64,000 bases of DNA from an uncultured Nitrospira sp. (GCA_902500805.1 CABVSA010000002.1:1-64000), one strand, 5' to 3'. Numbered from the stretch's first letter, positions 35,726-58,403 are shown. Notes: generated by a model from the letters alone, not told the origin. Numbers and translations are program-made.

Positions 35726-35876
35726 TACCGCTAAGGAGGAATGCTCCCAAAATTTTGAGATATATGGACTCCGTTTATGTTTTCATGTTTGCAGTCGCGG
35801 GATCAGCCTGGCATGATAAGAAAACCATCTTGGCGAGAAATATTTTGACGAAAGTTGAGGGGTGCGAACAGTAGCA

Positions 35877-39456: not shown

Positions 39457-39558
39457 TCGGACTGGCACCGTGATGTTGCGATTGATCTGAGTGGGGTGAT
39501 TGGGTTTCAGGCAATAGCTGCCTCGCTTCATGCGTGTGGCATACGAAGGAATAGGACG

Positions 39559-40158: not shown

Positions 40159-40166
40159 GGTGACCT

Positions 40167-40703: not shown

Positions 40704-40859
40704 CAGGGCAGTGAAACAACCAGCCGGATTCGTTCTCGTAGTACTAGTCAGCACCTAAAATCTTAGCAGGGCGGCATTCTTGAGCCGTCTAAATTGTCCG
40801 ACCACAACTTGGAGCGGCGAAATTGGATCGATGGCTCCCATGAATGTGAATAGGTCGTT

Positions 40860-42029: not shown

Positions 42030-42036
42030 GAGTGCC

Positions 42037-42738
42037 ATGCCTTCGGCTGTGATTCTTGCCGGCGGGCTCGGGACCAGGTTGCGCAGCGCCGTGCCGGACC
42101 TTCCCAAGCCCATGGCCCCGATCAACGGCCGTCCCTTTCTTGAACATCAGCTCGATTATTGGATCAACCAGGGGGTCAGCCGGTTTGTGTTGTCCGTAGG
42201 ATACCGGCATGAAGCTATTACCGGTCATTTCGGGGCTCACTATAAAGGTGTTGAGATCGAGTATGCTATTGAGGATCAACCGTTAGGAACCGGTGGTGGG
42301 TTGTTACTTGCTGTGGAGAAACTCGATCAGGATAAGCCGTTCTTGCTCTTGAACGGAGATACGTACTTCGAGGCGGACTGGAATGCATTGGATGTCTTTG
42401 CCGTGGAGCATGAGGCGGACTGGTGTTTTTCATTGTTCGAGACGAGCGAGAGGGGACGGTATATGGGCATCGAGATGTCCGCTCAGGGACGGATCACCTT
42501 GTTGAAGTCCGGGGTTGAGCAGGGGCCTCGTCTTGCCAATGGGGGAGTGTATTGGGTACATCCGCGTGCGTTGTCCGGGACTTGGAGGCTGGGTGAAAAA
42601 TTATCGTTGGAAGACGATTTGTTTCCTCACGCACTCACGGCCGGACGTCGGTTATGTGGGATAGAGTTTGGTGGGACCTTTATCGATATTGGGGTCCCTG
42701 ATGACTATCATCGAGCCTCAAGCTTGTTGGTAGGTTAG
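42037..42738 (+). CDS. HddC-like sugar-1-phosphate guanylyltransferase
   Basis: Encodes 233 residues of nucleotidyltransferase fold: VILAGGLGTRLRSAVPDLPK, PMAPINGRPFLEHQLDYWIN, LGTGGGLL and LLNGDTYFEADW. The length and the DLPKPMAPI pattern match HddC (D-glycero-alpha-D-manno-heptose-1-phosphate guanylyltransferase) better than the larger RfbA/GalU types. Start is eight bases after the DegT-family gene's stop. With HddA and GmhB it would give GDP-D-glycero-D-manno-heptose. Confidence 0.88.
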   Translation: MPSAVILAGGLGTRLRSAVPDLPKPMAPINGRPFLEHQLDYWINQGVSRFVLSVGYRHEAITGHFGAHYKGVEIEYAIEDQPLGTGGGLLLAVEKLDQDKPFLLLNGDTYFEADWNALDVFAVEHEADWCFSLFETSERGRYMGIEMSAQGRITLLKSGVEQGPRLANGGVYWVHPRALSGTWRLGEKLSLEDDLFPHALTAGRRLCGIEFGGTFIDIGVPDDYHRASSLLVG

Positions 42739-42777
42739 TGCTGGCATGAGCGATCAATCAACGGAGAGGACACGACG

Positions 42778-43716
42778 ATGAGCTATAACATTCTTGTGAC
42801 CGGTGGCGCAGGCTATCTCGGCTCTACTTTGGTGCCGGATCTCCTTCAACAAGGCCACAATGTCACGGTGCTGGATAACTTTATGTACAAGCAGGCCAGC
42901 CTGAATCATGTATGTCATCATCCCAAGTTTTCAGTCGTGAAAGGTGATATCCGTATCGAAAGCGTGATGGCTCCGTTGATCAAGAAGGCCGACGTTGTGA
43001 TTCCATTAGCCGCGCTGGTGGGAGCTCCGATGTGCAGCCAGGACCCGGTGGGCGCAACTACCGTCAATCATGACGCCATACTGTTGATGTTGAAACTGTT
43101 GTCGAAGCAGCAGATGGTTCTGATGCCTACTACCAACAGTGCCTACGGTACTGGGGATCAGAACAATTTTTGCACGGAAGAATCTCCATTGAATCCTATT
43201 TCTCTCTACGCCAAGGAGAAGGTCGGCATTGAAAAGGAGCTGATGCAGCGGGAGAACGCCATCAGTTTTCGTCTGGCGACCGTATTTGGGATGTCGCCGC
43301 GCATGCGGATCGATTTGTTGGTAAACGATTTTACCTATCGGGCTGTGTACGATCGCTTTGTGGTGTTGTTTGAGAGTTCCTTTAAGCGAAACTATGTGCA
43401 TGTGCGTGATATTTCACGCGTCTTTCAGCACGGCATTGAACATTTCGGCAAGATGAAAGGTCAGATCTACAATGTCGGTCTGTCTGATGCCAATGTGTCG
43501 AAAAGAGAGTTGTGCGAGCATATCCAGAAACAGGTTCCAGACTTCGTGTTCGTCGATGCTCCGGTCGGTAAGGATCCGGATCAGCGAAACTACATTGTTT
43601 CTAACGCCAAAATCGAATCGACCGGATTTAAGCCGCTCTACTCACTTGATATAGGGATCAGCGACTTGATTAAGGGATACGCAATGATCAAGAACACGCG
43701 CTATGGGAATGTGTGA
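42778..43716 (+). CDS. NAD-dependent epimerase/dehydratase (extended SDR)
   Basis: Encodes 312 residues behind a good GGAGAGGA. Rossmann motif ILVTGGAGYLGSTLVPDLLQ, Tyr-Lys pair in ISLYAKEKVGIE, and NYVHVRDISRVF typical of the family. Unlike the Fcl-like gene it cannot be assigned a specific reaction. Epimerisation or reduction of a 4-keto nucleotide sugar is likely. It probably belongs to the same sugar pathway as its four upstream neighbours. Confidence 0.88.
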   Translation: MSYNILVTGGAGYLGSTLVPDLLQQGHNVTVLDNFMYKQASLNHVCHHPKFSVVKGDIRIESVMAPLIKKADVVIPLAALVGAPMCSQDPVGATTVNHDAILLMLKLLSKQQMVLMPTTNSAYGTGDQNNFCTEESPLNPISLYAKEKVGIEKELMQRENAISFRLATVFGMSPRMRIDLLVNDFTYRAVYDRFVVLFESSFKRNYVHVRDISRVFQHGIEHFGKMKGQIYNVGLSDANVSKRELCEHIQKQVPDFVFVDAPVGKDPDQRNYIVSNAKIESTGFKPLYSLDIGISDLIKGYAMIKNTRYGNV

Positions 43717-43746: not shown

Positions 43747-44394
43747 ATGATGCCCTCAGGCATGAGCGCTCCATCTAAGGTCAATCCGAATATTATTCGA
43801 CATCCTGTGCTGGTTACACGGGCTCATCGAGAAGCGAAACATGGGCATAGAGGTGTGATTGTATGGCTGACAGGATTGTCAGGGTCCGGTAAATCAACGC
43901 TGGCATATTCGGTCGAAAATGTACTTCATGCGAACGGCTGTCAGACTGTAGTACTGGATGGAGACCATGTCCGCCACGGTTTGTGCCGCGATCTTGGATT
44001 TTCTCCGGAAGACCGACGGGAAAACATTCGCCGCGTCGGCGAGGTGGCTAAATTATTCATGGAGACCGGGGTTATTGTACTAACAGCATTTATTTCGCCA
44101 TACCGTGCTGATCGTGAAGACGTACGCAAGTTGGTCGGGGCCGAAGACTTCATTGAAGTGTATTGTGACGCGCCCCTCGAAGTATGCGAATCTCGTGACC
44201 CCAAGGGGCACTATAAGAAGGCCCGTCTGGGCCAGATTATGGAATTTACCGGTGTCTCATCCCCGTATGAAGTCCCCAAGAATGCAGAGATGGTTGTAAA
44301 TAGCGGTACTTTGTCGGTAGGCGAGTGTGTGCGACAGATTATTGAAAAGATATCAAAGTGTGGCGTTTTCAAGGTTTCACTGAATTTAAGATGA
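43747..44394 (+). CDS. cysC: Adenylylsulfate (APS) kinase
   Basis: Encodes 215 residues (ATGs at 43747, 43750 and 43762 are possible). CysC phosphorylates APS to PAPS, the universal sulfate donor. P-loop VWLTGLSGSGKSTLAYSVEN, LDGDHVRHGLCRDLGFSPED, NIRRVGEVAKLFMETG and FISPYRADREDVRKLV are all diagnostic. The reductive assimilation genes are not here, while two sulfotransferases lie just downstream. This copy is therefore probably dedicated to glycan sulfation. Confidence 0.95.
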   Translation: MMPSGMSAPSKVNPNIIRHPVLVTRAHREAKHGHRGVIVWLTGLSGSGKSTLAYSVENVLHANGCQTVVLDGDHVRHGLCRDLGFSPEDRRENIRRVGEVAKLFMETGVIVLTAFISPYRADREDVRKLVGAEDFIEVYCDAPLEVCESRDPKGHYKKARLGQIMEFTGVSSPYEVPKNAEMVVNSGTLSVGECVRQIIEKISKCGVFKVSLNLR

Positions 44395-44533: not shown

Positions 44534-45331
44534 GTGCTTACTCTAAGGCTGTTTCTAAACCTGTATCGCCATCGGACAATGATCTTTGCTCTAGCAGCAC
44601 GGGATTTGCGAAGCCGATACGTAGGGACTTTAGGTGGAATTCTTTGGACGGTTGCGCATCCAGTGGCCGTGATAGCCGTCTTTTATTTCGTGTTCACCAT
44701 TGGGTTCAAATCGCATGGGCCAGATGGAGCTCCGTTCCTGCTTTGGTTTATGTGCGGAATAGTGCCATGGTTTTTTTTTAATGAAACACTATCGGCAGCG
44801 AGTGACTCGGTAACTCGGCATACCCACTTTATAAAAAAAATCGTCTTTCCATCAGAGGTTCTTCCGGTGGTGAGCATTTTGGTAGGGTTGGTCCCGCACA
44901 CTGTTTTTCTGTTCATTGTGGCCGGTTTGCTTGCCTGGTTTGAGGTGCCATTTGTTGTCGGCCGCTTGCTTGTACTGTACTTCTTCTTTTGCAGTTGCGT
45001 ACTGGTTCTTGGTCTCGGCTGGTTGCTCTCTGCGATACAGGTGTTCTATCGCGATATCTCGCATGGGCTGTCAATCATTCTCAATTTGTGGTTTTGGGCG
45101 ACGCCTATTGTGTGGCCACCGGAAAATGTGCCTGAGGCATATCGTGAGTTACTGTACTACAATCCTATCTATTATATTGTGGATGGCTACCGGGGTCTTC
45201 TTGTTTTTCACACGCTAGCATGGCCGAATCTCCTGCAGACAATCTATTTTTGGGGCATGACAGGAGTGACTCTTCTAGTCGGTGCCTATGTATTCAGTCA
45301 GCTCAAACCTGAGTTTCCAGACGTTATATAG
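44534..45331 (+). CDS. wzm: Polysaccharide ABC exporter permease (Wzm-like)
   Basis: Encodes 265 residues from GTG at 44534 with six hydrophobic helices. Family landmarks: LAARDLRSRYVGTLGGILWT, VVIPFLLWF-type APFLLWFMCGIVPWFFFNET, HFIKKIVFPSEVLPVVSILV, IQVFYRDISHGLSIIL and a C-terminal YYNPIYYIVDGYR. It forms the channel of the O-antigen/teichoic-type ABC exporter with the ATPase encoded eight bases downstream. Confidence 0.92.
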   Translation: MLTLRLFLNLYRHRTMIFALAARDLRSRYVGTLGGILWTVAHPVAVIAVFYFVFTIGFKSHGPDGAPFLLWFMCGIVPWFFFNETLSAASDSVTRHTHFIKKIVFPSEVLPVVSILVGLVPHTVFLFIVAGLLAWFEVPFVVGRLLVLYFFFCSCVLVLGLGWLLSAIQVFYRDISHGLSIILNLWFWATPIVWPPENVPEAYRELLYYNPIYYIVDGYRGLLVFHTLAWPNLLQTIYFWGMTGVTLLVGAYVFSQLKPEFPDVI

Positions 45332-45339
45332 TCGATCGC

Positions 45340-46695
45340 ATGCCTCCGGAAACCGTAATTTCCGTTCGAAATGTAACAAAAAAGTTCAAGCTGTTCTCGT
45401 CAGCCAAAGAACGGCTTATCGAAGCGTTGCATCCATTTGGACGACGCCTTCACCATGAGTTCTGGGCACTGCGAGAGGTTTCCTTCGATGTCCATCGGGG
45501 GCAAGTTGTCGGCATTATGGGACGGAACGGGTCAGGAAAGTCGACGCTTTTGCAGATAATCTGTTCTGTTATGCAACCGACTATAGGGCAAGTCCAAGTC
45601 AATGGTCGTATTTCTGCTCTGCTGGAGCTTGGAGCAGGATTCAATCCTGAATTTTCAGGCCGGGATAACGTGCTCCTTAATGGCGCGATCTTGGGGCTCT
45701 CGCGTAAGGAGATGCTCGATAGAGTTCCGGACATAGAAGCCTTCGCTGATATAGGAAAGTTTTTTGATCAGCCAATGAAGATCTACTCCTCTGGGATGTT
45801 TGCGCGGGTTGCCTTTGCCAGCGCGATTCACGTGAATCCGGAAGTTCTTGTCGTGGATGAAATCCTCGGCGTGGGTGACGCCAAATTTCAGGAAAAGTGT
45901 TACAACCGGATCCGATCCATGTGTGAGAAGGGCGTATGCATTCTTTTTGTCAGCCACAGCACCGAGGCCATCCAACGCAACTGCGATGTGGCGCTGCTGC
46001 TCGATAACGGGCAGATTGTTGCCCATAACTCTGTAGATGCGGTCATTGCAGCTTATCATGATCTGCTTTATGGATCTGGCCACATGGGTAAGTGTGATCG
46101 GAGTACGCTGGAGACGGAGCAGAAGGGCACGGTCGATGTCCCTAACAGAAGTCAAGGTCACCGAATTGAATTGCAGGAATTTGTAGAAGGACGTGAAAGC
46201 CCTGTCTATACGAAGTTTCAGTATTACAATTCGCATGAACGGCGCTTTGGAAGTCGTGAGGCCGAGATTGTGGATTTTCTTGTTACCGCTAATGAACAAA
46301 TAGATTTTGACGTTCTGTCAGGCAATGAGGAGATAGGACTTTACATTAAGGTTCGTTTCTCGAGGGATGTTGATCAACCTGAGATTGGCTGGGCTATCGC
46401 GAGTCCGGAGGGAATTGTGATAGCGGGGTCAAATACGGCAATGAGCCAAATCATTCTCCCTCAAGCGCGGGGTGGTGAAACCTGGGTATATCTCATTTCG
46501 GTTCAACCTGTTCTTTGTGGAGGAAATTATTTTCTCAATTTTGGCGTTGGTGAGATTGTCAATGGAACGTGGTCCTTCTTGGACAATAGGAGGGCAGCGG
46601 TTCATCTGTCTGTAGCCGATACGAGCACGGTGATGGGGTTTTTCAAGCCTCCCTTCACATATAAAGTCATATCGGAGCCATATCATCGTGGATAA
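45340..46695 (+). CDS. wzt: Polysaccharide ABC exporter ATPase with glycan-recognition domain (Wzt-like)
   Basis: Encodes 451 residues. The ATPase domain (about 1-245) has Walker A GIMGRNGSGKSTLLQI, the Wzt-type signature MKIYSSGMFARVAFAS and Walker B VLVVDEILGVGD. After a linker, residues about 285-450 form a Wzt C-terminal beta-sandwich (FGSREAEIVDFLV, EIGLYIKVRFSRDVDQPEIG). That domain in Escherichia coli O8/O9a binds the modified non-reducing end of the glycan before export. Here the terminal signal could be a sulfate or methyl group (inference). The gene overlaps the first sulfotransferase by eight bases. Confidence 0.93.
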   Translation: MPPETVISVRNVTKKFKLFSSAKERLIEALHPFGRRLHHEFWALREVSFDVHRGQVVGIMGRNGSGKSTLLQIICSVMQPTIGQVQVNGRISALLELGAGFNPEFSGRDNVLLNGAILGLSRKEMLDRVPDIEAFADIGKFFDQPMKIYSSGMFARVAFASAIHVNPEVLVVDEILGVGDAKFQEKCYNRIRSMCEKGVCILFVSHSTEAIQRNCDVALLLDNGQIVAHNSVDAVIAAYHDLLYGSGHMGKCDRSTLETEQKGTVDVPNRSQGHRIELQEFVEGRESPVYTKFQYYNSHERRFGSREAEIVDFLVTANEQIDFDVLSGNEEIGLYIKVRFSRDVDQPEIGWAIASPEGIVIAGSNTAMSQIILPQARGGETWVYLISVQPVLCGGNYFLNFGVGEIVNGTWSFLDNRRAAVHLSVADTSTVMGFFKPPFTYKVISEPYHRG

Positions 46696-48241
46696 TCATG
46701 CAAATGCATCCAGATTTTTGGTTGTCGGGCCTCCACGAGGTGGATTCACCTTACTTCTGTCAGTGTTGTCGCTCCTCAATCGTGATCGTGGCAACGCCAA
46801 GCCTCACGCCCAAGAAATTGCAGATCCGTACATCGCCATCGCTGGAGAATATTTAGATGCTGCAATACGAGACTGGTTTTGCACACAGGTCGGTGAGGAG
46901 AGGCTGTTCTTTAATAAGGAATTCTCCATCCTCGTGGGTGGGCCGAAATGGATTTGTACAGAAGACAAAGATACCGTCTGCGTTCGCAAGTACCTCGGCG
47001 TCAAGAGGTCGGGGGATTTCACCTTTCTGCTGTATTTGCCTCGATGGGTATTGGCTTTCGACGAAATTATTCACTCGCACAGCCATCCGGCGCTCTGGTT
47101 GGCAATGTCCGACTATTCGCAGTTCAAGAAGTTTGCTTCGATCCGCAATCCCATCGACATCATTCATTCCTCCGTTTTCTCCATCAATGCATTGGCTAGT
47201 GAGTTCATCCAGCGTGAATTGAGGATGGACGAACACCAAATTCGACGCGAGCTTGCGTTGAACAAGCTCACCAACCCTGAGTTTATTTCAGGCTTGATCG
47301 TCTTTCTTAAGAAATATCTTGATGAATTTATCACCGTGGTCGATCGATTTGATTATGTAATGCGCTGGGAAGATCTGATCCAGCACCCAAGTGAGGAAAT
47401 CGGGCGCATTGCACAGGCGACCGGTGAGCCTGCCAGCGCGGCATATGCTAGCCGCGTCTGGAGCGAGTTGGATCATAGGAACTTGACCCGCTATCACAGG
47501 CATAGTTTTCGCCGTGGGTTGTTGTACGATTGGCAGTTCAATATTACCAATACCCACCTCAAATTATTTGAAGAGGCCGGTTTTGGAGAGTATCTGCAAC
47601 GATTTGGCTACGATCCGATTGTTTATTTTAAAGAGAGTGATTATACCGCTGACCAGGTGTTGATCGAGGAGCATATTCGTCGGGGGCAGCCGTATGTAGA
47701 GAGTCTTGATGACGACTTGATAACTTTCGCATTTAATAAGACCAACTTTACGCCGTCACCTCGATTTATATTCAAGCACTATCCTCGTCAAGGCGCTATC
47801 GAGATTGAGAAGTCTACCATGCGAGATGAAGTTCTCGAGGTGGGATTCATGGCGCGTATGGCGCCTGTATCAGAAGTTGTTTTCCGCTACCTTTTGGAAT
47901 TACGGAAGGTTGCTGAAGAGGCGGCAGCCGGTAATGATGAGCCTCTCGCTAATTTGCGGGTGCGGTACACCAGAGTGTTCTCTGAATGGCTTGGCGATCG
48001 TTCTGCATCCATGTTTTCTGCATTAGAACAGCCTAGTGTTTCCATAGCTCCACCCCGGCTTGTTGGGACTGCTGCGGGATACAACATTGTGTGGTTGAAG
48101 GGCTATCATTATTCTGTCCCACAATCGCTGGGTCCTATGGATCTAGGCCAGCTTGACTTGTCCTCCCTGGCATCTACGATCCTGGTCACTCGCACATATG
48201 AAGAAGCGCTTCAAGCTATCGCAATGAGGGCCGAGACGTGA
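46688..48241 (+). CDS. Sulfotransferase-like protein with one C-terminal YNIV module
   Basis: Encodes 517 residues from a GTG inside the end of wzt. The PAPS 5'-phosphate loop is FLVVGPPRGGFTLLLSVL at the N-terminus, and the 3'-phosphate site appears as ASIRNPIDIIHSSVFS (RxPxDxxxS). Both are modified relative to the classical PKSGTTW form, so catalytic activity is likely but unproven. Residues 456-517 are the recurring module GYNIVWLKGYHYSVPQSLGP plus MDL. It ends in a GTGA overlap with the next sulfotransferase. Predicted to sulfate the exported glycan in the cytoplasm. Confidence 0.8.
   Translation: MDNHANASRFLVVGPPRGGFTLLLSVLSLLNRDRGNAKPHAQEIADPYIAIAGEYLDAAIRDWFCTQVGEERLFFNKEFSILVGGPKWICTEDKDTVCVRKYLGVKRSGDFTFLLYLPRWVLAFDEIIHSHSHPALWLAMSDYSQFKKFASIRNPIDIIHSSVFSINALASEFIQRELRMDEHQIRRELALNKLTNPEFISGLIVFLKKYLDEFITVVDRFDYVMRWEDLIQHPSEEIGRIAQATGEPASAAYASRVWSELDHRNLTRYHRHSFRRGLLYDWQFNITNTHLKLFEEAGFGEYLQRFGYDPIVYFKESDYTADQVLIEEHIRRGQPYVESLDDDLITFAFNKTNFTPSPRFIFKHYPRQGAIEIEKSTMRDEVLEVGFMARMAPVSEVVFRYLLELRKVAEEAAAGNDEPLANLRVRYTRVFSEWLGDRSASMFSALEQPSVSIAPPRLVGTAAGYNIVWLKGYHYSVPQSLGPMDLGQLDLSSLASTILVTRTYEEALQAIAMRAET
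48053..48238 (+). other. YNIV module copy 1
   Basis: Residues 456-517 of the first sulfotransferase: PRLVG, GYNIV, YHYSVPQSLGPMDL, then YEEALQAI near the end. It is the clearest copy in the window. Confidence 0.7.
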
Positions 48242-49794
48242 ACCGGTATTTGGAGTTTTTTCCCCCTGAAACTAACGGTGCGATTGGGAAATCGCTTGAA
48301 CACGCTTTTGAAAGGGGAGCCCGCAAGGCCGTGGTGATCGGGCCGAAGCCTTGTGACCGCGAATTGGTCAATATTCTGAACAAATTCGGAATCTTATGGA
48401 TTGAGGAACAGCTGGCAACATTTCAGAATCTGGATATCGCCGATACAGATATTGTTCTTGTGACCGGCGGCGGTGGTAGAGATGTTTCACGTGTGCTCCA
48501 TGGCTGTATCGACCGGAATGTTGCAGTTATTGCTCCGGTGACTCAACATCACTCCAGTAAACGCACGGTGTTCCTGCTTTCTCTCCCCAAAGCGGGAACT
48601 CATATGATGATCCGGCTTTTTGATTTGATGGGGATAGGTCGGTCACCGGAACGAGCACCGCAGCCAGGTACATGGTGTACTCCCGTCGGGTATCACTATC
48701 ACGCGCCGTGCAGAGATATGATGCGTGGTGATTGGTTCGATCCTATGGGGCGTCACTTGTTGTTTCGCTCGCCGGCGATTTTTGTTTACCGTCATCCACT
48801 GGATATTGTTGTTTCCGAGTTGGACTGGTTTGTGAGGCCTGAGCACACGTTCTCAGGGTATCTGAATTGCTGTGCAAACAGATCCGAACAGCTGGATCGG
48901 CTGATTGCGGATAGTGCCGTTATGGGCACCATCCGAGAGCGCATCAATGGGTACGTCGGATGGATGAATTTTAACAACGTGATTCCCGTAAGCTACGAAG
49001 AATTAGTGGGTGAACGAGGAGGCGGAAGTGATACCGATCAGCTGGAAACAATATGGGCCCTGCAGCTAAAACTACATATCCCTGGAAACCCTCGTGAATA
49101 CGGCTCGCGGCTTTACGATCCTTCTAGCGCCACGTTCTCGAGAGGGCGTATTGGACGACACATGGAGTATTTTGAAGAACGTCATTTCGCGCTCGTGAAT
49201 TCACTGCCGCAGGACTTCATGCAGAGGCTCGGATATTCGATCGGCTCGACGATTTCTTCGAACACAAAGAAACTACGGCTGCGCCACCTTGATGTAAAGG
49301 AGCTGCCACCAGTTACTCTTTACACTCCCCGATTGGTACGGGAAGGCCCGCGTGACTGGAACATTGTGGAGATCGCGGGAAAGTATTTCCCAGTTCGGCA
49401 TGGGGTCGTTGTCAGGTCTGTTGATGATGCCCAACTCGTTTCGGCTGGACAAGAGGGGTTCGCGGGCTTGCGTGATGCCGTTGATGCCGTGGTGCATGAC
49501 GACGCCGTGATGCCTTATCCGGCGGCTGTCCAGGAATTCGCAGGCACGGAATTGGTATGCGAAGGCTATTGCGGATTCAATATTGTTCGACACAACGGCG
49601 GTTGGTATGGTTTCGACCAAGCATTAGGACCGACAGATGTCGGATCGCTTGTCGATCAAGCAATAGAAGACCTCAAGTGGAAAGGAAGTTGTGTATCTGG
49701 TATCAGTATGGAGGATGTCAAGATGGAGATCCTCCGCATTGTGATGGAACAACAGGAAAGGAAGATTAAATCTTTGCGGAAAGGAAGTATATGA
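48238..49794 (+). CDS. Sulfotransferase with N-terminal Rossmann-like domain and two YNIV modules
   Basis: Encodes 518 residues from GTG at 48238, translationally coupled to the preceding gene. Residues 1-105 are a Rossmann-like domain of unknown role (KAVVIGPKPCDRELV, DIVLVTGGGGRDVSRV). The sulfotransferase core has the 5'-loop LLSLPKAGTHMMIRL, the 3'-site FVYRHPLDIVVSELDW and the late loop FSRGRIGRHMEYF, all in canonical form. The C-terminus holds a diverged module (from residue 364, WNIV...YFPVRHG) and a better one (from about 437, GFNIVRHNGGWYGFDQALGP). PAPS would come from the CysC encoded upstream. Confidence 0.87.
   Translation: MNRYLEFFPPETNGAIGKSLEHAFERGARKAVVIGPKPCDRELVNILNKFGILWIEEQLATFQNLDIADTDIVLVTGGGGRDVSRVLHGCIDRNVAVIAPVTQHHSSKRTVFLLSLPKAGTHMMIRLFDLMGIGRSPERAPQPGTWCTPVGYHYHAPCRDMMRGDWFDPMGRHLLFRSPAIFVYRHPLDIVVSELDWFVRPEHTFSGYLNCCANRSEQLDRLIADSAVMGTIRERINGYVGWMNFNNVIPVSYEELVGERGGGSDTDQLETIWALQLKLHIPGNPREYGSRLYDPSSATFSRGRIGRHMEYFEERHFALVNSLPQDFMQRLGYSIGSTISSNTKKLRLRHLDVKELPPVTLYTPRLVREGPRDWNIVEIAGKYFPVRHGVVVRSVDDAQLVSAGQEGFAGLRDAVDAVVHDDAVMPYPAAVQEFAGTELVCEGYCGFNIVRHNGGWYGFDQALGPTDVGSLVDQAIEDLKWKGSCVSGISMEDVKMEILRIVMEQQERKIKSLRKGSI
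49327..49494 (+). other. YNIV module copy 2 (diverged)
   Basis: PRLVREGPRDWNIVEIAGKY then FPVRHG. The first half follows the consensus; the PQSLGPxDL part is replaced. Confidence 0.55.
49546..49743 (+). other. YNIV module copy 3
   Basis: TELVCEGYCGFNIVRHNGGW, then YGFDQALGPTDV, with a helical tail (SMEDVKMEIL). Confidence 0.65.
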
Positions 49795-49869: not shown

Positions 49870-51147
49870 ATGACGGCTTTAGTTCATAAGAATACATCGC
49901 CATGGTCACCTCGTCTGTCCATTATTTTGTTGGACTGGAATTGTCGCGAGCGGTTCACCACTCTCGACTGGCTGCTACGGCAAGATGTGCCGAAGGATCA
50001 GTATGAGCTCATCTGGGTGGAGGTTTATGACCGTGTCGTTGATGAAGTGATGGAAAAAGCTGATGTCGTCATCACGTGCAATCAGCAAGGCATGTATCAC
50101 AAGCACATGGGCTATAACACGGGATTGTTGCATGCGCGCGGTGAATTGATCTGTGTGTGTGACAGCGATGCGGTGTTCCCTCCTAATTTTGTGCGTTCGG
50201 TACTTCACGCGTTTCACATGGAAGATGGGAGACCTGCTGTTCCATTGGTACTCATGCACTACGAATGGCGCACGTCTCTCCTCTATCCGGATGGGTTAAC
50301 TGATACTGCGATACTCAAAGACCATGCTCGTTGGAAATGGTGGCCTCTCATTGTGAACGAAGGCGCTTGCATGACTGTGCGTAGGGCTGACGCAATCCGG
50401 TTTGGAGGTTTTGACGAACATCCCAGTTACAAGGGGTATTTGTGCGGCCCATATGATTTGGGCTGGCGCCTGATTAACGCCGGTTGGCCGGAAGTGTGGC
50501 ACGATGAGTCTGTAGCGTTGTGGCACTTCGCGCATCCCGACCCAATTGGTACGAATGGCCAGCGAGCCTCATTGAAGCAGTTGCTGGAAAAGGCCCACCC
50601 TCATATTAATGGCCATGCGTTGACGGCCGTGGAAGCGTTTTCAACGGGGCGATTCCAGCCTCTTCAGGAAAACGTAGACATCTGGAAATTACGGATGAAG
50701 GATCGACGAATCGGATCCGAACTTGAAACTCGGTATGCCGATTTGACCGGACCAGGTGGATATTCTCCCCGCGCTGTATTGTTCTTGTGGATGTCTCTGG
50801 TGAAAGAGATTGTCGGGCGGTATCTTGCGGATCGCTGGTGGCATCCTATCCGTGAGGTCTTAGTCTCCTTGATGGGACCACGCATTGCGTCAAAACTTCG
50901 TGCGGTTATCAGAGATCACGTTGCTCCGCGCAGAGTCAATCATGAGGTGGCGGCTGACCATCCGACACTGCTCTGTTCTCTACGAGGATATAACATTGTG
51001 AAGGTGAAGAATGAGTACTATGCTGCTCCTCAGAGTGTCGGAGATTTGGATCTGTCGACGGAAGAGGGAAAGGTTCATCCTGATCTAATAGTTGCCGAAG
51101 ACTACGAAGGGCTTCTGGAAAAAGTCCATATAGCATCAAGGGGATAG
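49870..51147 (+). CDS. GT2-family glycosyltransferase with one C-terminal YNIV module
   Basis: Encodes 425 residues. The GT-A domain begins at LSIILLDWNCRERFTTLDWL and has the metal-binding DxD in LICVCDSDAVFPPNFV, a GACMTVRRADAIRFGGFDE segment and GPYDLGWRLINAG, as in GT2 enzymes with an acceptor ED-like motif. About 100 basic residues follow. Residues 365-425 are the recurring module (LRGYNIVKVKNEYYAAPQSV, then GDLDL). A 75-base gap separates it from the sulfotransferase, and a 32-base gap from the TIR-like gene. Confidence 0.88.
   Translation: MTALVHKNTSPWSPRLSIILLDWNCRERFTTLDWLLRQDVPKDQYELIWVEVYDRVVDEVMEKADVVITCNQQGMYHKHMGYNTGLLHARGELICVCDSDAVFPPNFVRSVLHAFHMEDGRPAVPLVLMHYEWRTSLLYPDGLTDTAILKDHARWKWWPLIVNEGACMTVRRADAIRFGGFDEHPSYKGYLCGPYDLGWRLINAGWPEVWHDESVALWHFAHPDPIGTNGQRASLKQLLEKAHPHINGHALTAVEAFSTGRFQPLQENVDIWKLRMKDRRIGSELETRYADLTGPGGYSPRAVLFLWMSLVKEIVGRYLADRWWHPIREVLVSLMGPRIASKLRAVIRDHVAPRRVNHEVAADHPTLLCSLRGYNIVKVKNEYYAAPQSVGDLDLSTEEGKVHPDLIVAEDYEGLLEKVHIASRG
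50962..51144 (+). other. YNIV module copy 4
   Basis: Residues 365-425: PTLLCSLRGYNIVKVKNEYY, AAPQSVGDLDL, ending with YEGLLEKV. Near-perfect agreement with copy 1 in a different enzyme class. Confidence 0.7.
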
Positions 51148-51179: not shown

Positions 51180-51641
51180 ATGGGAACCTTGAGAAATTAT
51201 GATCTTTTCGTGACTCATGCGTGGCGTTTTCATGAGGACTGGACAAAGTTTACGGAACTCATGGACAAGGTGCCGGGAATTTTGTGGCGTAACTTCAGTC
51301 TCCCTTGGCATGATCCTGCAATAAGCCCCAATACGGAAGCTGGGGGACGATTTATTCGAAGCTCCTTGGAAAGCCAGATCATTCCCGTGCATGTCGTGGT
51401 TCTGCTTGCCGGGGTATATGAGACTAGGAGTGCCCGAGTGTGGGTCGATATGGAAGTAGAAATGGCAAAGAAGCACCACAAACCCATTATCGGCATGCCT
51501 CCTATCAATAAAGAGTCAATCCCTGATGGACTGCTGGCACTGTGCGACGCGAGCAGTACGTGGGAGGCGACAAGGTTGCTTGCCATCATTGACGAAGTGC
51601 AGTCCCTCCCAAGGTTTGCATCGAAGCTTTCCGGCGGATAA
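51180..51641 (+). CDS. TIR-like protein, ThsB/MTH538 type (DUF1863)
   Basis: Encodes 153 residues. The pattern YDLFVTHAWRFHEDW, WRNFSLPWHDPA, LESQIIPVHVVVLLAGVYE, WVDMEVEMAKKHHKPIIGMP corresponds to the MTH538/ThsB TIR-like domain. Family members include the TIR signal generators of Thoeris phage defence and others of unknown role. It is single-domain, with no ThsA-like effector next to it. It lies between a glycosyltransferase and a radical SAM gene on the same strand. Function here is unknown; the family call is from sequence pattern recall. Confidence 0.78.
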   Translation: MGTLRNYDLFVTHAWRFHEDWTKFTELMDKVPGILWRNFSLPWHDPAISPNTEAGGRFIRSSLESQIIPVHVVVLLAGVYETRSARVWVDMEVEMAKKHHKPIIGMPPINKESIPDGLLALCDASSTWEATRLLAIIDEVQSLPRFASKLSGG

Positions 51642-51820: not shown

Positions 51821-54800
51821 ATGACCGATACAGCCGTCGTTCTGACTCTTAGGAGAGAGCACGCAACTTCCAAGGTGGAGGGGACACGCGTCACATTCAA
51901 TCCTCATCAATGCTTCGCGTTTGACGATGGGCCAGAGGATGTCGCCTGTCTGCGTGCTCTTGGGGCGTATCTTTTAACATTGCCGGGCCTCGCCTTGGTC
52001 GGCTCGAAGAGATTTGCCGATTATCTCTTGCGGCATGTTCCTGATCTTGGGGGCAGGATTGTCGGCACGGTCTCATATGAGAATCTACCGGAGATGCATT
52101 CTCTGCATGGTCTGGCGAGTGTCAAGCTTGGAGCACTGCCCATCGAAACACAAAGCGCCTTCCTCTGTGAAACGTTGGCGTTCCCACGCATGCAGATGGT
52201 AAAGCAATTGTCTCAATCAGTCACTATCATTGACCTCACGGTTTTGGCCGAAATTGCGCCTGACCTCATTCCTGCCCGCGGCTGGACCCCGTTACCACGC
52301 AATATTTATCCAATCGACATTCCAGAGATCCAATTCAGGAAGGAGCTGGATGTAGCCATTGTCGATTGTCCTTCGAGAAATTTATCTCTGATGCCCAATG
52401 GATTGGGATATTTGAATAATGCGCTGAAGAAGACGTCGGTGTCCTTTCAAATTGTCGATCTCGATATCATTTCCTATCATCGGTTTCATGTTCATCGGCT
52501 GCTCGACATGGGTGGCTGCATCACGTTACCCGGCAATTTAGTTTTGCCGGAGGATCCTTGGCAGGCAGAGCACTACGATCTGTGGACCGCAACTGGTGGA
52601 GGAGCTTCGGGCTCAACGGGGCGCAACGAAGTACTAGAGTTCTTCAGACCCCTCATCGACGAGACAATAGCAGCGTTGGTTGCAGCGCGACCCAAGGTTC
52701 TGGGGCTCTCTATCCAAGGATGTAATGAGGCTGCGGCGCGCGAGGTTGCGCTCGGCGTGAAGGCTCAATTGCCGGATATCACGATCGTGGTGGGTGGGTT
52801 CAGTTGTTACAATGCGGATGTCGGCCGCCGTGCATTCCCGGAATGCGACTACATGTGCATCGGCGAATCTGACCTCACCGCTGGTCCATTATTAGAGGCC
52901 TTGGCCAGAGGCGAGCGACCATTCAATCAGCCGGGTGTACTGTCCCGTTTTGATACGCCAGATTATTCTTATATTCCCGCGCCTATGATTCATAACCTTG
53001 ATCAGATCGAATTCCCCAAATATGAATGGTGTGATCTGAGCGTGTACAGAAACTTCAATGACTACCAGCTGACGCCCATTATTGCCAGCCGGGGTTGTCG
53101 CTGGTCCCGTTGCACGTTCTGTGCTGAGCGGTTCTATTGGCGTATTCGTACCAAAGAGAATTTTGTTGATGAGCTGGAGTGGTTGGTCGGACAGGGGTGC
53201 CATCTGTTCATGTTCAATGAGAGCGATCTTGGTGGTATGCCTGAACGTGTTATGGAGATTTGTGATGAGATTATTCGCCGTGGCCTTCATCGCAAGGTAA
53301 AGCTTACCGGCCAGCTACGTGTGAATAAGAAACAAAATCGGGCCTTCTTTGAAAAGCTGCGAGAGGCCAACTTCGTTGCGCTTCGTTTCGGGATCGACGC
53401 TTTTTCGGAGCGTACGTTACGGCTACAGATGAAGGGGTACACGGTTGACATGATTACCCAGAACCTGAAGGACTGCTGGGAGGTAGGAATCTTTACGGAG
53501 GTCAACTGGGTTATTGGTGTTCCAGGAGAATCCGATCAAGATGTCGATGAGGGAATCGAGCTTATCCTGAAGAACCGAAAGTATATCGGCCGCTTGGCAA
53601 ACATCAATCCACTCATATTAGTAAACGGCAGCGTCTACTGGATCGATCCACCATCTCACAACATTGTGCTCAAGGAATCGAAGGAAATCATGTACGAGAA
53701 GTATCCGCGAGCCCTTCCTGCAGACCAGTGGTACAGCACCGATCCCTATATTGATGCACAGGTTCGCAAGGAGCGATTTGAGCGCATTGTGCTTGCGCTA
53801 CACGACGCGGGATTTCATGTTGGAGCGTGGGCCAACCGTGTGATTGAAGATGTCAAACTCAATCGTGACAAGGCACGGACCGGGACGTCTGGCCAGTCGG
53901 TCAGCGCCGGTGAATTCGAAATTGCCGGCGGAGAAAAGGTCTGTGCTGCTTCCCTAGATTCCGAAGAACAAACGGCCCTGGAAGCCTCAAGCCAGCGCGC
54001 CCCTATTACCGACCTTAAACCATCACGGAGTACTAAGTTACTGCCGATGCTTCAGGAAGCGGACATCGAATCGGAGGATGCAGTCGGACCTTCTGCAGAG
54101 CCACCATTGTTTCAGGTTGCTGGTCAGCCGCCGCGCATGGTTCGTGGGATGGATACGCATACGATCATTTTCTACAATGGCTGGTACTACGGCGTTCCCG
54201 CCGCATTGGACAGTATTGACGTGACAAGTCCAGAGTCAACCGCAATTGCAGGGCTTCTTCGGTACCCAACTGAAGAGGAAGTCGTTGCGGCTATAGAGGA
54301 GAGCGCCAGATGGGCGAATTCCCGCGGCCAATATGATGATCAGAAGAAACAGCGAACCTCCGGATCCTACATGCGAGCGGATAGTGTTGGTGAAATATCT
54401 GGCCCCGTCGCGATCGTCACTAAGCCTCGTATTCTTCGGTTCGGCAAGATGTATATCGCCGTGGATCAGGATGTCCTCAAGAATTCGTTCCGTCGGAGAT
54501 CCCTTTTCGAGAGAAGGACCAACGAGGAAAATGGAAGCGATCAAGATATTAGTGTACTGCGCAGACTGATCAGATTGTTCCCCTCCTCATTTGAAGAGGA
54601 ACTACGTCGTCTCATCCGTCAGGAGCGTATTAACAGAGGGAACGGAGCACGCTTAAGCGATCTACATCTCGCCGTTATGCTGCCGCGTGCTGTTGCCATC
54701 GCGTATATCAAAGAACCACTCAAGCGTAGTATGCGCCTCCTGTCCAGCCGAGGCACCGGTAACGAGTGCAGGGTTGGGGTACAGGTGGAAGGGGAAGATT

Positions 54801-55300
54801 TCTCCATCATGTCCGTCGTAACGAAGAACGCTCAACCGGAGTTGTTGTGGACTATCGATAAGTACAATCTTGTGAGGTTTGACGGCCTGTTCTACGGAGT
54901 TCCACATGGAGCCTATGTAGAATGGGATTCAGGCTTAATCGCCTCGGTTCCCGGCATGTTCGTCGGTGACAGCATCGCCGAAGTGGATGGTATGATCCGA
55001 AACATCAGAGGGGAAGTGGGCGAGGTCTCCGTCACCGCAACAGAGGATTGTTCCCCCGCATCGGGGTTTACCAAAAAGCCAATCTTGCTTCGTAGTATGC
55101 CAGAGGAAGGATACGACGTTATTTCTTATGAGGGATGGATCTATGGTATGCCGCATGCCTTAGGACCCATTGATCTGACCGAGATTGACGTCTTGGAGAT
55201 GCCAGGTGTTATTCGAGATGTGTCTCGCGATGCGGTAGAAAATGAAATTCTTGCTCTGGCCGGAAACAATAGCCCGTCGTGCAGTATCGTGGAGGCATGA
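51821..55300 (+). CDS. Giant B12-type radical SAM protein with multiple C-terminal YNIV modules
   Basis: About 1159 residues (ATG 51821 with GAGG six bases upstream; a GTG at 51818 also exists). Residues 1-170 form an N-terminal Rossmann-like domain (LALVGSKRFADYLL, FLCETLAFPRMQM, IIDLTVLAEIAPDLIPARGW). Residues about 185-400 form a cobalamin-binding-like domain (LDVAIVDCPSRNLSLMPNGL, IVVGGFSCYNADVGRR). The radical SAM core has Cys426, 431 and 434 (CRWSRCTFC), a Cx4Cx2C variant of the usual Cx3Cx2C. After about residue 690 comes a low-complexity linker, then three good modules and one degenerate one interspersed with helical segments. It ends in an ATGA overlap with the SDR gene. Substrate unknown. 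Confidence 0.85.
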   Translation: MTDTAVVLTLRREHATSKVEGTRVTFNPHQCFAFDDGPEDVACLRALGAYLLTLPGLALVGSKRFADYLLRHVPDLGGRIVGTVSYENLPEMHSLHGLASVKLGALPIETQSAFLCETLAFPRMQMVKQLSQSVTIIDLTVLAEIAPDLIPARGWTPLPRNIYPIDIPEIQFRKELDVAIVDCPSRNLSLMPNGLGYLNNALKKTSVSFQIVDLDIISYHRFHVHRLLDMGGCITLPGNLVLPEDPWQAEHYDLWTATGGGASGSTGRNEVLEFFRPLIDETIAALVAARPKVLGLSIQGCNEAAAREVALGVKAQLPDITIVVGGFSCYNADVGRRAFPECDYMCIGESDLTAGPLLEALARGERPFNQPGVLSRFDTPDYSYIPAPMIHNLDQIEFPKYEWCDLSVYRNFNDYQLTPIIASRGCRWSRCTFCAERFYWRIRTKENFVDELEWLVGQGCHLFMFNESDLGGMPERVMEICDEIIRRGLHRKVKLTGQLRVNKKQNRAFFEKLREANFVALRFGIDAFSERTLRLQMKGYTVDMITQNLKDCWEVGIFTEVNWVIGVPGESDQDVDEGIELILKNRKYIGRLANINPLILVNGSVYWIDPPSHNIVLKESKEIMYEKYPRALPADQWYSTDPYIDAQVRKERFERIVLALHDAGFHVGAWANRVIEDVKLNRDKARTGTSGQSVSAGEFEIAGGEKVCAASLDSEEQTALEASSQRAPITDLKPSRSTKLLPMLQEADIESEDAVGPSAEPPLFQVAGQPPRMVRGMDTHTIIFYNGWYYGVPAALDSIDVTSPESTAIAGLLRYPTEEEVVAAIEESARWANSRGQYDDQKKQRTSGSYMRADSVGEISGPVAIVTKPRILRFGKMYIAVDQDVLKNSFRRRSLFERRTNEENGSDQDISVLRRLIRLFPSSFEEELRRLIRQERINRGNGARLSDLHLAVMLPRAVAIAYIKEPLKRSMRLLSSRGTGNECRVGVQVEGEDFSIMSVVTKNAQPELLWTIDKYNLVRFDGLFYGVPHGAYVEWDSGLIASVPGMFVGDSIAEVDGMIRNIRGEVGEVSVTATEDCSPASGFTKKPILLRSMPEEGYDVISYEGWIYGMPHALGPIDLTEIDVLEMPGVIRDVSRDAVENEILALAGNNSPSCSIVEA
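54131..54304 (+). other. YNIV module copy 5
   Basis: PRMVRGMDTHTIIFYNGWYY then GVPAALDSIDV, ending YPTEEEVVAAI. A decayed further copy follows at about 54425-54520 (PRILRFGKMYIAVDQ). Confidence 0.6.
54836..55006 (+). other. YNIV module copy 6
   Basis: PELLWTIDKYNLVRFDGLFY then GVPHGAYVEWD. The core agrees, while the LGPxDL part is altered. Confidence 0.65.
55079..55261 (+). other. YNIV module copy 7
   Basis: PILLRSMPEEGYDVISYEGW then IYGMPHALGPIDL, with a terminal helix (AVENEILAL). A good match to copies 1 and 4. Confidence 0.68.
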
Positions 55301-56175
55301 GATTGAGGTTATTTCAGAAAGACATTTCGACGACTGGTATCTTACAGAATGCCAATCCATCGGCTTGGCAAGAGCATCGGTTTGGTTTGCCGCAAGCCAG
55401 ATGGGAGCGGCTCACTGGTAGAGATTTTTGGATAACGGGCGCGGGAACGGGATACGGGCGGTGCATTGCACTGGCTCTTGCAGCAGCTGGTGCTCGAGTC
55501 TTTATTTCAGGACGACGAATCGAGAAATTACATGAAACGGTGGCCGAAGGTGCGGCACTTGGTATTGACGTACGGCAGTGTATCGCTGTCCCCGTGGATA
55601 TTCGATCGGAAGAGGATCTTGTCCGCGCACTGCAAAGCATTCAGCTTGTTACCCCAAGTCTCTATGGGCTTGTGAACAGCGCCGCTCTTCCTCAATCAGG
55701 AGGGGCTGCATTCCCGCTAACTGGTCAAAGTGCCATCGATTGGATGAACCTTCTTGCCACAAACGTAACCGGCCAATGGCTGACGTGTAAGGCGGCCATG
55801 CCTCTCTTAAGTCGTGGCGATGGATTTCGGATTCTCTTTCTGTCCTCATTCGCAGGCTGGGCATCGACGCCCGGATTTGGCCCATACAACATCAGTAAAT
55901 CGGCAGTCAATACGCTGGGAGCATCTCTCGCCGCCGAGTGTGGCGTCAGATATCCAGGAAAGGATGTGCAGATCAACGTGTTAGTGCCAGGAGAAGCACA
56001 TACTGAAATGAATGAAGGATCCACAGAGAGCCCTTATGCAGTGGTCAGCATGGTACTGGTTTTGTTGTCTCATCCGCCCGGAGGTCCCAACGGGTATTTT
56101 TTTAATCGAGATGGGCAACATCTCGCATTCTCCTATACTCCACCATATTCTCAACCGCTTTTGTCAGTGCACTGA
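55297..56175 (+). CDS. Short-chain dehydrogenase/reductase (SDR)
   Basis: About 292 residues from ATG 55297, which overlaps the preceding stop (ATGA) and has GGAGG upstream. Classical SDR: cofactor motif WITGAGTGYGRCIALALAAA, NSAA in GLVNSAALPQSGG, catalytic Ser in LFLSSFAGWAS and Tyr-Lys in FGPYNISKSAVN. About 45 residues precede the Rossmann fold, longer than usual. It probably reduces or oxidises a sugar or small hydroxyl compound serving the glycan pathway. The last base of its stop is the A of the next ATG. Confidence 0.9.
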   Translation: MRLRLFQKDISTTGILQNANPSAWQEHRFGLPQARWERLTGRDFWITGAGTGYGRCIALALAAAGARVFISGRRIEKLHETVAEGAALGIDVRQCIAVPVDIRSEEDLVRALQSIQLVTPSLYGLVNSAALPQSGGAAFPLTGQSAIDWMNLLATNVTGQWLTCKAAMPLLSRGDGFRILFLSSFAGWASTPGFGPYNISKSAVNTLGASLAAECGVRYPGKDVQINVLVPGEAHTEMNEGSTESPYAVVSMVLVLLSHPPGGPNGYFFNRDGQHLAFSYTPPYSQPLLSVH

Positions 56176-58403
56176 TGTCTGGTTCCTTCCTACACGTCGC
56201 GATTCCTTGGAGTCTTAGTCACTACATCCCGTTGGACGGTTTTCATCCGTTCTACCGGGCCTTGTTCGATCATGCTCCGGAAGATATCAGGCTGTTTGCT
56301 TGGGATAACGTCAAGCTGTATCGTAAGCTCCAGGATGATACGGCCATGCGCAAGGTGTTCGTAGATAAATTAAAAACGGAAGGGCATCGACACGGTCGAC
56401 TTCACGGGGAGTCTATTGCAAAGAGATATCAAGATTATTTTTGGCCTCCCGATCAGATTCTGACGTCCGCTCTGGAGGGCGACCTTGAATTTCATCATAC
56501 CGCTCCATTTCCTTCTCTCAAACGACCCTTCGTCTTTCACTGCGAGTCGTTTGTGCCGGTCTTATTCCCCCTTGCTCACCAAGGTCAGGACACTGTTGAA
56601 AACCTGGAAGAACTGAAAGATCATTATCGGAGTATTTTTGCCAATCCCCTGTGCCTTGGTATCTTTTCCCATGTGCCGGACACGCTTCGTGCGCTTAGCG
56701 CGTTCTTGTCAGACTCAACCGTCGATAGGAAGCTGTTTTCTTCAAGAACGGGATTATCCACCGAAGCATTCTCTGTACAGGAACCAGGGCAAAAGCCGTC
56801 GCTTTCGAGACCGCGGTTCCTGTTTATCAATTCTGCCAACCAGAATTCGGTGAACTTTTTTCATCGGGGCGGGCATCTCGTCTTACGTTTCTGGAAAGCA
56901 CTTGTGGGCGATGGTCGAGACGGCCTGCTGATGCTTCGCTGCGCAATGCCGCTCGAGAACGAGTTGCGTGAATATGGAGTGGATGTGTCATGGGTCAAAA
57001 ATGAGATCGGTCGAACCATTATCTGGGATCAAGGCTACTTGGCTAGTTACGAAGTAAAATCTTTGATGGAGGGCGCGCATTTCTTTCTGCTTCCTAGTAT
57101 GTCGCTGCACTCCACCTCGATCATGGAGGCGATGGCGGCGGGAACGATTCCTGTCGTGTCAGACGTTGTGGGCACCTCAGTGTATGTCACTGATGCAGAT
57201 ACTGGGATTATTTTGCGTGGCGCGCGGACAGAAGTGTGGCCGAGAAAACAGAGGACGGATCTTTTGTTGGACCGATACGGGCGATCGCAGAGGGTCGACA
57301 ATTTCCTTGTTGAGCAAATGACTAGCCGTGCATGTGCTTTGCTGGATCAGCCCGATCTCTATTGGGACATGCATCGACGGGCGCTTGCAGATGCCCGAGA
57401 ACGGTTTTCGGGACAGAGCTTTTCCCAAGAGTTCTGGAACTCAGTCTCGGGTTTGTATGCGCAGTTCCATTCGTCGGTTGGTGCTGGAAGGCGGGGCTCT
57501 GATCTCCCGGAGCATTCATTGAGGGAATGTACGATTCAGCGTGGAGGCTGGGCGGGAATGTTTGAGAGCCCTTCGCAGCCGATGTTACGGATCAAGACAG
57601 AGTTCGGCGCCGTATGGGAAATGGGCGGCGCTATGATCCACATCTACGGGAATCCTCGCATCGAATTAAATGACTGGTCCGTGTTGGCTCAATATTATAA
57701 AGTCGGCGTTCCGCAAGCGACTTATGCCGCTACTTTAGAAGAGCTGCAAGGGAAATACCTTCACCCGCTTGGTGGGCATCGAGAAGGAGTTCGGCGTAAG
57801 TTGGTTCGAGCGATTTCAAAAGTGCTCAGGCCGTTTCCTGCTTTGTATCATTATGCGGCCCGGGTTCTGGCGGTTTATCGGCGGCATGGAGGGCTCAAGT
57901 TCGCCAGGTCACCAATAGTACCAGAAATCGAGCTCGTACGTCAGGGGATCAACGGATACAATATTATACGTCATCGTGATCGGTACTATGCCATCCTCCA
58001 GTGCGAAGGGGAATTTTCTCCAGAAATGGCCGAGGCCGGTGGCTATTCGTTATGTTATCGGGGCCATTCTGCCGAGGAGGTGCTTAGAATTATCGCTGCA
58101 AGTACCCTGGCATTGAGGTCGCTACCCAGTGAGGAATGTGACGAACCTCCTCAAGTCATTGTGGAGGGCTTCCATCATTTCAATATAGTCCGCCAAGGCA
58201 ATGAATTTTATGCCGTTGTGCAAAGCGAGAATGAATGTGCACGACCAAATTTACTCTCAAAACAGTATGCGCCATCGTTTTCAGGCTTCTCTCTTGAAGA
58301 AGTCCAACGCAAGATCCTGAAGGAAGTAACTGCCAACCCGTGGCCTCAAGCCTGGAATAGTTCGGTTGATTCTGTTGAAGTGGCGAGACGAGGCACCCGC
58401 TGA
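56175..58403 (+). CDS. GT4-like glycosyltransferase with two C-terminal YNIV modules
   Basis: Encodes 742 residues. The GT-B part (about 1-430) shows FLFINSANQNSVNFFHRGGH and a donor-binding LHSTSIMEAMAAGTIPVVSD, with Glu-x7-type spacing as in GT1/GT4 enzymes. The N-terminal acceptor domain is unfamiliar. Residues about 445-560 are an unrecognised domain, and 583-650 and 659-720 are two copies of the shared module (NGYNIIRHRDRYYAILQ; FHHFNIVRQGNEFYAVVQSE). It is coupled to the SDR gene upstream by a one-base overlap and to the next gene by CTGA. Confidence 0.82.
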   Translation: MSGSFLHVAIPWSLSHYIPLDGFHPFYRALFDHAPEDIRLFAWDNVKLYRKLQDDTAMRKVFVDKLKTEGHRHGRLHGESIAKRYQDYFWPPDQILTSALEGDLEFHHTAPFPSLKRPFVFHCESFVPVLFPLAHQGQDTVENLEELKDHYRSIFANPLCLGIFSHVPDTLRALSAFLSDSTVDRKLFSSRTGLSTEAFSVQEPGQKPSLSRPRFLFINSANQNSVNFFHRGGHLVLRFWKALVGDGRDGLLMLRCAMPLENELREYGVDVSWVKNEIGRTIIWDQGYLASYEVKSLMEGAHFFLLPSMSLHSTSIMEAMAAGTIPVVSDVVGTSVYVTDADTGIILRGARTEVWPRKQRTDLLLDRYGRSQRVDNFLVEQMTSRACALLDQPDLYWDMHRRALADARERFSGQSFSQEFWNSVSGLYAQFHSSVGAGRRGSDLPEHSLRECTIQRGGWAGMFESPSQPMLRIKTEFGAVWEMGGAMIHIYGNPRIELNDWSVLAQYYKVGVPQATYAATLEELQGKYLHPLGGHREGVRRKLVRAISKVLRPFPALYHYAARVLAVYRRHGGLKFARSPIVPEIELVRQGINGYNIIRHRDRYYAILQCEGEFSPEMAEAGGYSLCYRGHSAEEVLRIIAASTLALRSLPSEECDEPPQVIVEGFHHFNIVRQGNEFYAVVQSENECARPNLLSKQYAPSFSGFSLEEVQRKILKEVTANPWPQAWNSSVDSVEVARRGTR
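57921..58110 (+). other. YNIV module copy 8
   Basis: IELVRQGINGYNIIRHRDRY then YAILQ, ending in an SAEEVLRIIA helix. The LGPxDL segment is not conserved. Confidence 0.62.
58149..58328 (+). other. YNIV module copy 9
   Basis: PQVIVEGFHHFNIVRQGNEF then YAVVQSE, ending in SLEEVQRKILKE. Tandem with copy 8 and most like it. Confidence 0.62.

Follow-up and report, generated by a model that had tools for sequence, protein, structure and literature searches.

A 64,000-nucleotide stretch of DNA from an uncultured Nitrospira sp. (GCA_902500805.1 CABVSA010000002.1:1-64000, hereafter the window), which is the start of a contig in a 4.3-Mb draft genome whose nearest relatives are Nitrospira metagenome-assembled genomes (MAGs), encodes a giant cobalamin-binding radical S-adenosylmethionine (SAM) protein at 51821-55300. 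This gene with its domains and modules, and the partner, APS kinase, exporter, sulfotransferase-like and glycosyltransferase genes mapped below, are on the plus strand. We lean towards the view that the protein is a class-1 cobalamin radical SAM enzyme which works with an NADPH-type short-chain dehydrogenase/reductase (SDR) and a TIR-like protein to form or alter a sugar in a sulfated glycan, for whose export a Wzm/Wzt transporter serves. We tentatively suggest C-methylation as the most likely reaction.

The reading frame is open from an ATG at 51821, with an in-frame GTG directly before it at 51818, bearing out the single chain of 1159 residues described earlier in a reading of this DNA without database searches (the sequence-only reading). 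It is a real gene, since nearly its full length is conserved, at 52-91% identity, in at least 15 other genomes. Conservation is almost end to end, at 62-91% identity, in Nitrospira, Rhodocyclaceae and Methylococcaceae, and more distant relatives occur in Rhodospirillales, an Acidobacteria MAG, Deltaproteobacteria and an Alphaproteobacteria MAG. The family comprises 27 loci, mostly on MAG contigs, in a patchy distribution over several phyla (the window, L007-L030, L048 and L067). One of these loci, L014, belongs to Methylomonas sp. WSC-6, a culturable methanotroph. A search of a plasmid collection gave no relative, and no literature on the gene set was found among the open-licence papers searched.

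The AlphaFold2 model, made from 26 sequences with a mean predicted local distance difference test score (pLDDT) of 69, shows both a cobalamin Rossmann domain and a SAM barrel, as the sequence-only reading had expected of a structure prediction. Ten-residue blocks of residues 1-670 mostly score above 70, with several low-confidence loops that include the cluster loop, 421-429, and the linkers are low. The cobalamin-binding domain (residues 176-405, 52346-53035) matches the Pfam B12-binding model at E = 1e-6, slightly below the gathering score, and aligns with OxsB and TokK. A GG motif at 325-326 and Ser-297 are conserved in its alignment columns, and no DxHxxG motif is seen in the sequence of residues 176-405. 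The radical SAM barrel and its C-terminal extension (residues 406-680, 53036-53860) are by region identities the most conserved part of the protein, with a Pfam Radical_SAM match at E = 8.5e-14 over residues 421-582. The [4Fe-4S] motif, Cys-426-x4-Cys-431-x2-Cys-434 (53096-53122), shows no variation among the relatives whose sequences extend over it and has the Cx4Cx2C spacing seen in the OxsB alignment.

When the model was compared with the PDB, the matches were TsrM, OxsB, TokK, MgmA and CysS at E = 1e-13 to 1e-10, with AprD4 at 6e-10. Because the top matches are class-1 cobalamin radical SAM enzymes, the type of B12 domain is settled; the arrangement is also that of class 1, with a Rossmann domain free of DxHxxG lying N-terminal to a SAM barrel with a three-cysteine motif. 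The cobalamin radical SAM methylases TsrM, TokK, CysS and MgmA, although top fold matches, have 14-16% sequence identity to our protein in the fold alignments and act on other substrates. A family profile run against PDB sequences found OxsB at 1.1e-11, TsrM at 3.5e-7 and TokK at 2.1e-5. OxsB, from oxetanocin A biosynthesis (PDB 5UL2-5UL4), is thus the best solved sequence match, and it too has its cobalamin Rossmann domain ahead of the SAM barrel; however, the N-terminal domains of the two proteins have no detectable sequence relation, and OxsB has none of the C-terminal modules described below. The sequence match in the OxsB/AlsB comparison is restricted to residues 265-550 of the profile, whereas the fold match extends over about 600 columns.

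In class-1 enzymes, the loop after the third Rossmann strand fills the space under the cobalt (PMC13331322). Here this lower-face loop is Gln-299-Gly-Cys-301-Asn-302, and Gln-299 aligns with Asn-186 of OxsB, likewise a polar amide side chain, while Cys-301 aligns with Trp-76 of TokK. Since these two alignments differ, the axial residue is uncertain. The best NCBIfam model is TIGR03975 (rSAM_ocin_1, radical SAM C-methyltransferases), with 99.7 bits; its curated cut-off of 281.85 is not reached, and we ruled out classification as a C-methyltransferase of ribosomally synthesized and post-translationally modified peptides. The AprD4 diol dehydratase model (NF033070, cut-off 500) gave no match at E = 0.1, and that classification was ruled out as well. 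Ahead of the core, residues 1-175 (51821-52345) form an orphan Rossmann-like domain with pLDDT mostly 80-94, in which a hairpin is followed by beta-alpha repeats (strands at 57-61, 82-85, 112-116 and 135-137). This domain gave only chance matches to Pfam and PDB sequences, so the description of it as unfamiliar holds.

The C-terminal part of the protein is built from a module of about 57 residues. A hidden Markov model (HMM) made from the window finds three full copies at residues 775-826, 1010-1060 and 1095-1144 in 1160-residue numbering, with 60-66 bits each. As mapped on the DNA, copy 1 covers residues 769-830 (54125-54310), copy 3 residues 994-1062 (54800-55006), and copy 4, which is the best conserved and has its own model, residues 1087-1148 (55079-55264). 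A half module, the beta-hairpin RILRFGKMYIAVDQ at about residues 868-887 (54422-54481), is seen in the AlphaFold2 secondary structure and as a weak HMM match of 4 bits, and it is followed by a helical insertion at residues 912-974. The three to four copies with helical insertions proposed earlier are therefore three full copies and one half copy. The separate model of the module (pLDDT 92.9) has three strands, a short strand and a helix, and no match to the module was found in Pfam, PDB sequences, PDB folds or viral structures.

The HMM places the module on five proteins of the window: the radical SAM protein, two sulfotransferase-like proteins, a GT2 glycosyltransferase and a GT4-like glycosyltransferase, the last with two copies. 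The sharing of the module with sulfotransferases and glycosyltransferases had been recognized from the sequence. The whole genome contains eight copies, all within the glycan locus. In relatives, the module is found on SPASM radical SAM proteins, a methyltransferase, acyltransferases, sulfotransferases and small stand-alone proteins. In G012, a Nitrospirota genome where the radical SAM gene went undetected, Wzt itself (L049:6337-7902) contains the module, placed in one chain after the ATPase domain and ahead of the Wzt C-terminal domain, which recognizes the glycan at export. The module would serve the same export step as Wzt_C, but it is a separate fold.

Among 148 Nitrospirota and 299 Pseudomonadota genomes, the module occurs in 7 and the radical SAM gene in 5; of these five, the genome of the window and G148 had already been known to have it. 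This co-occurrence is partly circular, as the radical SAM protein itself carries the module; the informative counts are those of modules on other proteins, and these are present near the radical SAM gene in all five genomes, with the other copy about 10 kb off in G168. Because the module is found on unrelated enzymes, on an exporter and alone, it is best read as a tether that would hold enzymes to a common ligand, to a complex or to each other. A Deltaproteobacterium locus (L028) also contains a small module protein, apparently membrane-anchored, adjoining large membrane proteins.

Two further genes accompany the radical SAM gene in several lineages. The upstream gene (51180-51641) encodes a TIR-like protein of 153 residues, of the ThsB_TIR/DUF1863 type, with 25.9 bits to PF08937 (cut-off 21.2) and E = 1e-5 to the PADLOC ThsB model. 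Conservation and an alignment to a solved TIR protein put Trp-88 and Glu-92 where TIR NADases have a Trp and the catalytic Glu; Glu-92 is replaced in L030. The downstream gene (55297-56175), whose ATG overlaps the radical SAM stop codon (ATGA), encodes a classical SDR oxidoreductase (PF00106, E = 4e-31) with the TGxxxGxG, Ser and YxxxK elements. In the alignment of relatives, Ser-190, Tyr-203, Lys-207 and Arg-79/Arg-80 are invariant, the Arg pair being typical of NADPH use. The TIR-like gene lies beside the radical SAM gene in 22 of 25 testable loci (L025 and L027, cut at the TIR side, were left out) and the SDR gene in 20 of 25 (L020 and L029, also cut, were left out; the genome of L020 has an SDR on another module-bearing contig, L053), frequencies that describe relatives of the radical SAM protein, through which the loci were collected, rather than a random sample. 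The TIR-like protein and the SDR are a single chain in the Acidobacteria MAG (L026:9256-10641). Strong TIR-like matches occur in exactly the three radical SAM-bearing genomes among the 148 from Nitrospirota, and two relatives with weaker matches are TIR genes that stand alone at other places. While the module link to glycan enzymes made in the sequence-only reading stands, that account did not notice either partner gene, TIR-like or SDR, nor a second B12 radical SAM gene in the window.

Is the TIR-like gene part of a Thoeris defence system? It matches ThsB models, but it is linked to radical SAM, SDR and glycan genes, and no ThsA effector is present among these scanned flanking genes. We therefore ruled out a Thoeris classification. 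One stand-alone TIR-like gene that is a relative of the partner gene (L073:1690-3039) adjoins a second small TIR-looking reading frame and a small membrane-protein-like one, and is possibly an immune locus.

The surrounding genes point to a polysaccharide. An adenosine 5'-phosphosulfate (APS) kinase (43747-44394; Pfam E = 2.4e-68, NCBIfam apsK above cut-off), for supply of the sulfate donor 3'-phosphoadenosine 5'-phosphosulfate, is followed by an ATP-binding cassette (ABC) polysaccharide exporter at 44534-46695. Its Wzt (45340-46695) has Pfam ABC_tran and Wzt_C domains, and Wzm (44534-45331) is assigned by its position beside Wzt and its conservation in relatives. Next are the two sulfotransferase-like proteins, at 46688-48241 (Pfam E = 7.6e-4, below cut-off; one module, 48053-48223) and 48238-49794 (Pfam E = 0.015, below cut-off; one full module, 49552-49737). 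The GT2 glycosyltransferase (49870-51147; C-terminal module, 50962-51129) and, beyond the SDR, the GT4-like glycosyltransferase (56175-58403; modules 57936-58097 and 58155-58319) were identified by Pfam and the module search. An ABC exporter with Wzt_C, glycosyltransferases and nucleotide-sugar genes together make this a Wzm/Wzt-dependent polysaccharide locus, and with the APS kinase and the two sulfotransferase-like genes, its product is probably a sulfated exported glycan. A GT2 gene is found upstream of the TIR-radical SAM pair in most relatives. Among relatives with readable flanks, the radical SAM gene is mostly in a glycan locus, as a role in glycan modification predicts, with two exceptions considered below. 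Even a module-less homologue in G673 lies, as read from its sequence, among nucleotide-sugar and glycosyltransferase-like genes.

We suggest the following mechanism. A [4Fe-4S] cluster on Cys-426, Cys-431 and Cys-434 would cleave SAM, and the resulting 5'-deoxyadenosyl radical would abstract a hydrogen from a carbon of the sugar, whether this is bound to a nucleotide or already part of the growing chain. The methyl group would then come from methylcobalamin held by the Rossmann domain, and the SDR would reduce or oxidize the sugar before or after methylation. Through its C-terminal modules, the enzyme may share a ligand or complex with the sulfotransferases, glycosyltransferases and exporter, and the modification would then take place on the assembly line, ahead of export. 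We consider C-methylation most likely on three grounds: methylases predominate among the fold matches to cobalamin enzymes, the top NCBIfam model describes a C-methyltransferase, and one relative lies with methionine genes. In that relative, L028:1651-19260, three tandem homologues stand downstream of MetH and a homocysteine methyltransferase-methylenetetrahydrofolate reductase fusion, proteins that would provide methyl groups as well as SAM. GenK and GenD1, the C-methyltransferases of gentamicin biosynthesis, to which we liken our protein by description, are enzymes of the cobalamin radical SAM type and place methyl groups on the carbons of sugars (PMC5461906). The radical modification of an exported glycan or its lipid carrier put forward in the sequence-only reading is thus upheld as regards a cobalamin radical SAM core joined by a module to glycan enzymes; the target is less firm, and a nucleotide-activated precursor sugar is equally possible.

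Several observations weigh against this interpretation. The B12-binding match has 29.0 bits, where the gathering score is 32.1, and a related fold need not use cobalamin, as AprD4 illustrates. OxsB, the closest solved sequence, is not a methyltransferase, and methionine genes are found beside L028 only. No recognisable glycan genes flank L026 and L030, the two deepest among the relatives in which the TIR gene is retained. Furthermore, L028, L048 and L067 have neither the TIR gene nor an SDR close to that of the window, so these partners are not strictly required.

The recurrent SDR partner, with its invariant active site, keeps another chemistry in play, in which the radical SAM protein, transferring no methyl group, dehydrates a vicinal diol of the sugar and the SDR reduces the keto product to give a deoxy sugar, as AprD4 and AprD3 do with paromamine. 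AprD4, a radical SAM enzyme of similar fold that acts on a sugar with a reductase (PMC5461906), is among our fold matches, but it is a smaller protein, from an antibiotic pathway. The methylases rank above it in the fold search, and NF033070, unmatched by our protein, is matched below cut-off by the window's second B12 radical SAM protein. We consider this dehydration unlikely. An OxsB-like nucleotide chemistry seems to us improbable; in it, a ribosyl or nucleotide unit would be set free or rearranged by the TIR-like protein, oxidized or contracted by the radical SAM protein, and finally reduced by the SDR to an unusual pentose-type precursor. TIR folds bind nucleotides, and the TIR-SDR fusion favors such a pathway. 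The OxsB sequence match, the common Cx4Cx2C motif and the polar amide under the cobalt (Asn-186 in OxsB, Gln-299 here; PMC13331322) also favor it; however, the match is confined to part of the profile, the alignment of TokK Trp-76 with Cys-301 makes the lower-face residue uncertain, and the TIR activity is only putative. Action of the core on a lipid carrier or anchor instead of a sugar, in favor of which are some weaker NCBIfam matches to lipid enzymes (HpnJ, HpnR and ladderane-type), is very improbable, as these matches are far under cut-off, and no lipid-synthesis genes are recognised beside the core genes. Finally, the TIR-like, radical SAM and SDR genes might form a unit for defence or signalling that has simply been inserted into a surface-glycan locus prone to variation. 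This would fit the ThsB matches, the stand-alone state of the closest unlinked Nitrospirota TIR relatives and the mosaic locus, but it is made highly improbable by the lack of a ThsA-like effector among the scanned neighbors, by the module common to the radical SAM protein and the glycan enzymes, and by a TIR-less member that lies in a glycan cluster.

Cobalamin radical SAM enzymes are known mostly from the biosynthesis of antibiotics, peptides, pigments, hopanoids and archaeal proteins. If the sugar-modifying role that we favor is true, their range would widen to include a surface polysaccharide made by nitrifying and methanotrophic bacteria. With the conserved TIR-radical SAM-SDR set one could test directly whether a TIR domain can serve in biosynthesis instead of immunity, while the module, found even inside Wzt, is a handle on the coupling of glycan modification to export. 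It is conceivable, though we regard it as doubtful, that these genes represent a new kind of glycan assembly line, in which a hitherto undescribed 57-residue module marks the enzymes of one polymer, namely sulfotransferases, glycosyltransferases, radical SAM enzymes, methyltransferases and acyltransferases, as well as the exporter ATPase of one genome. In this line, a TIR-fold protein recruited from an immune-type family would be a biosynthetic enzyme, acting alongside the SDR and the cobalamin radical SAM enzyme.

Compared with the Methylomonas and Rhodocyclaceae proteins, the B12 and SAM core is 87-91% identical, whereas the modules, where shared, are about 48-69% identical. This far better conservation of the core suggests that selection acts mostly on catalysis. 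In a tree of the core, rooted at the midpoint only, the Nitrospira sequences are sister to the methanotroph/Rhodocyclaceae group, within a larger Pseudomonadota group (support 99/95 and 100/99). Given this nesting and the 79-81% plain identity between phyla over residues 1-690, the gene was probably transferred into Nitrospira from Pseudomonadota. On one contig labelled Nitrospira (L017), the radical SAM protein equals that of the Rhodocyclaceae locus L012 in length and nearly matches it in identity pattern; this contig may have been assigned to the wrong bin. The window at 40552-63306 is a mosaic in comparison with L007: DNA identity is 98.6% at 40552-43714, at most 78% in the exporter-GT2-TIR stretch, and 89.8% on average from 51809 on. 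Protein identity is 82-83% for the radical SAM protein and the SDR and 94-98% beyond 56175. This mosaic suggests that the middle cassette has been exchanged between Nitrospira strains.

The second B12-binding radical SAM protein of the locus (35862-37433, 523 residues; B12-binding E = 1.6e-12) is nearest to the HpnJ, PhpK, BchE and AprD4 models, below all cut-offs, and its gene adjoins a heptose-7-phosphate-kinase-like GHMP kinase gene and a GDP-fucose-synthase-like gene. At 39496-42735, genes like those for the alpha and beta subunits of thiamine pyrophosphate-dependent E1 enzymes lie beside genes for an RfbH-like aminotransferase and an HddC-like guanylyltransferase, in what looks like a pathway to a branched or deoxy sugar.

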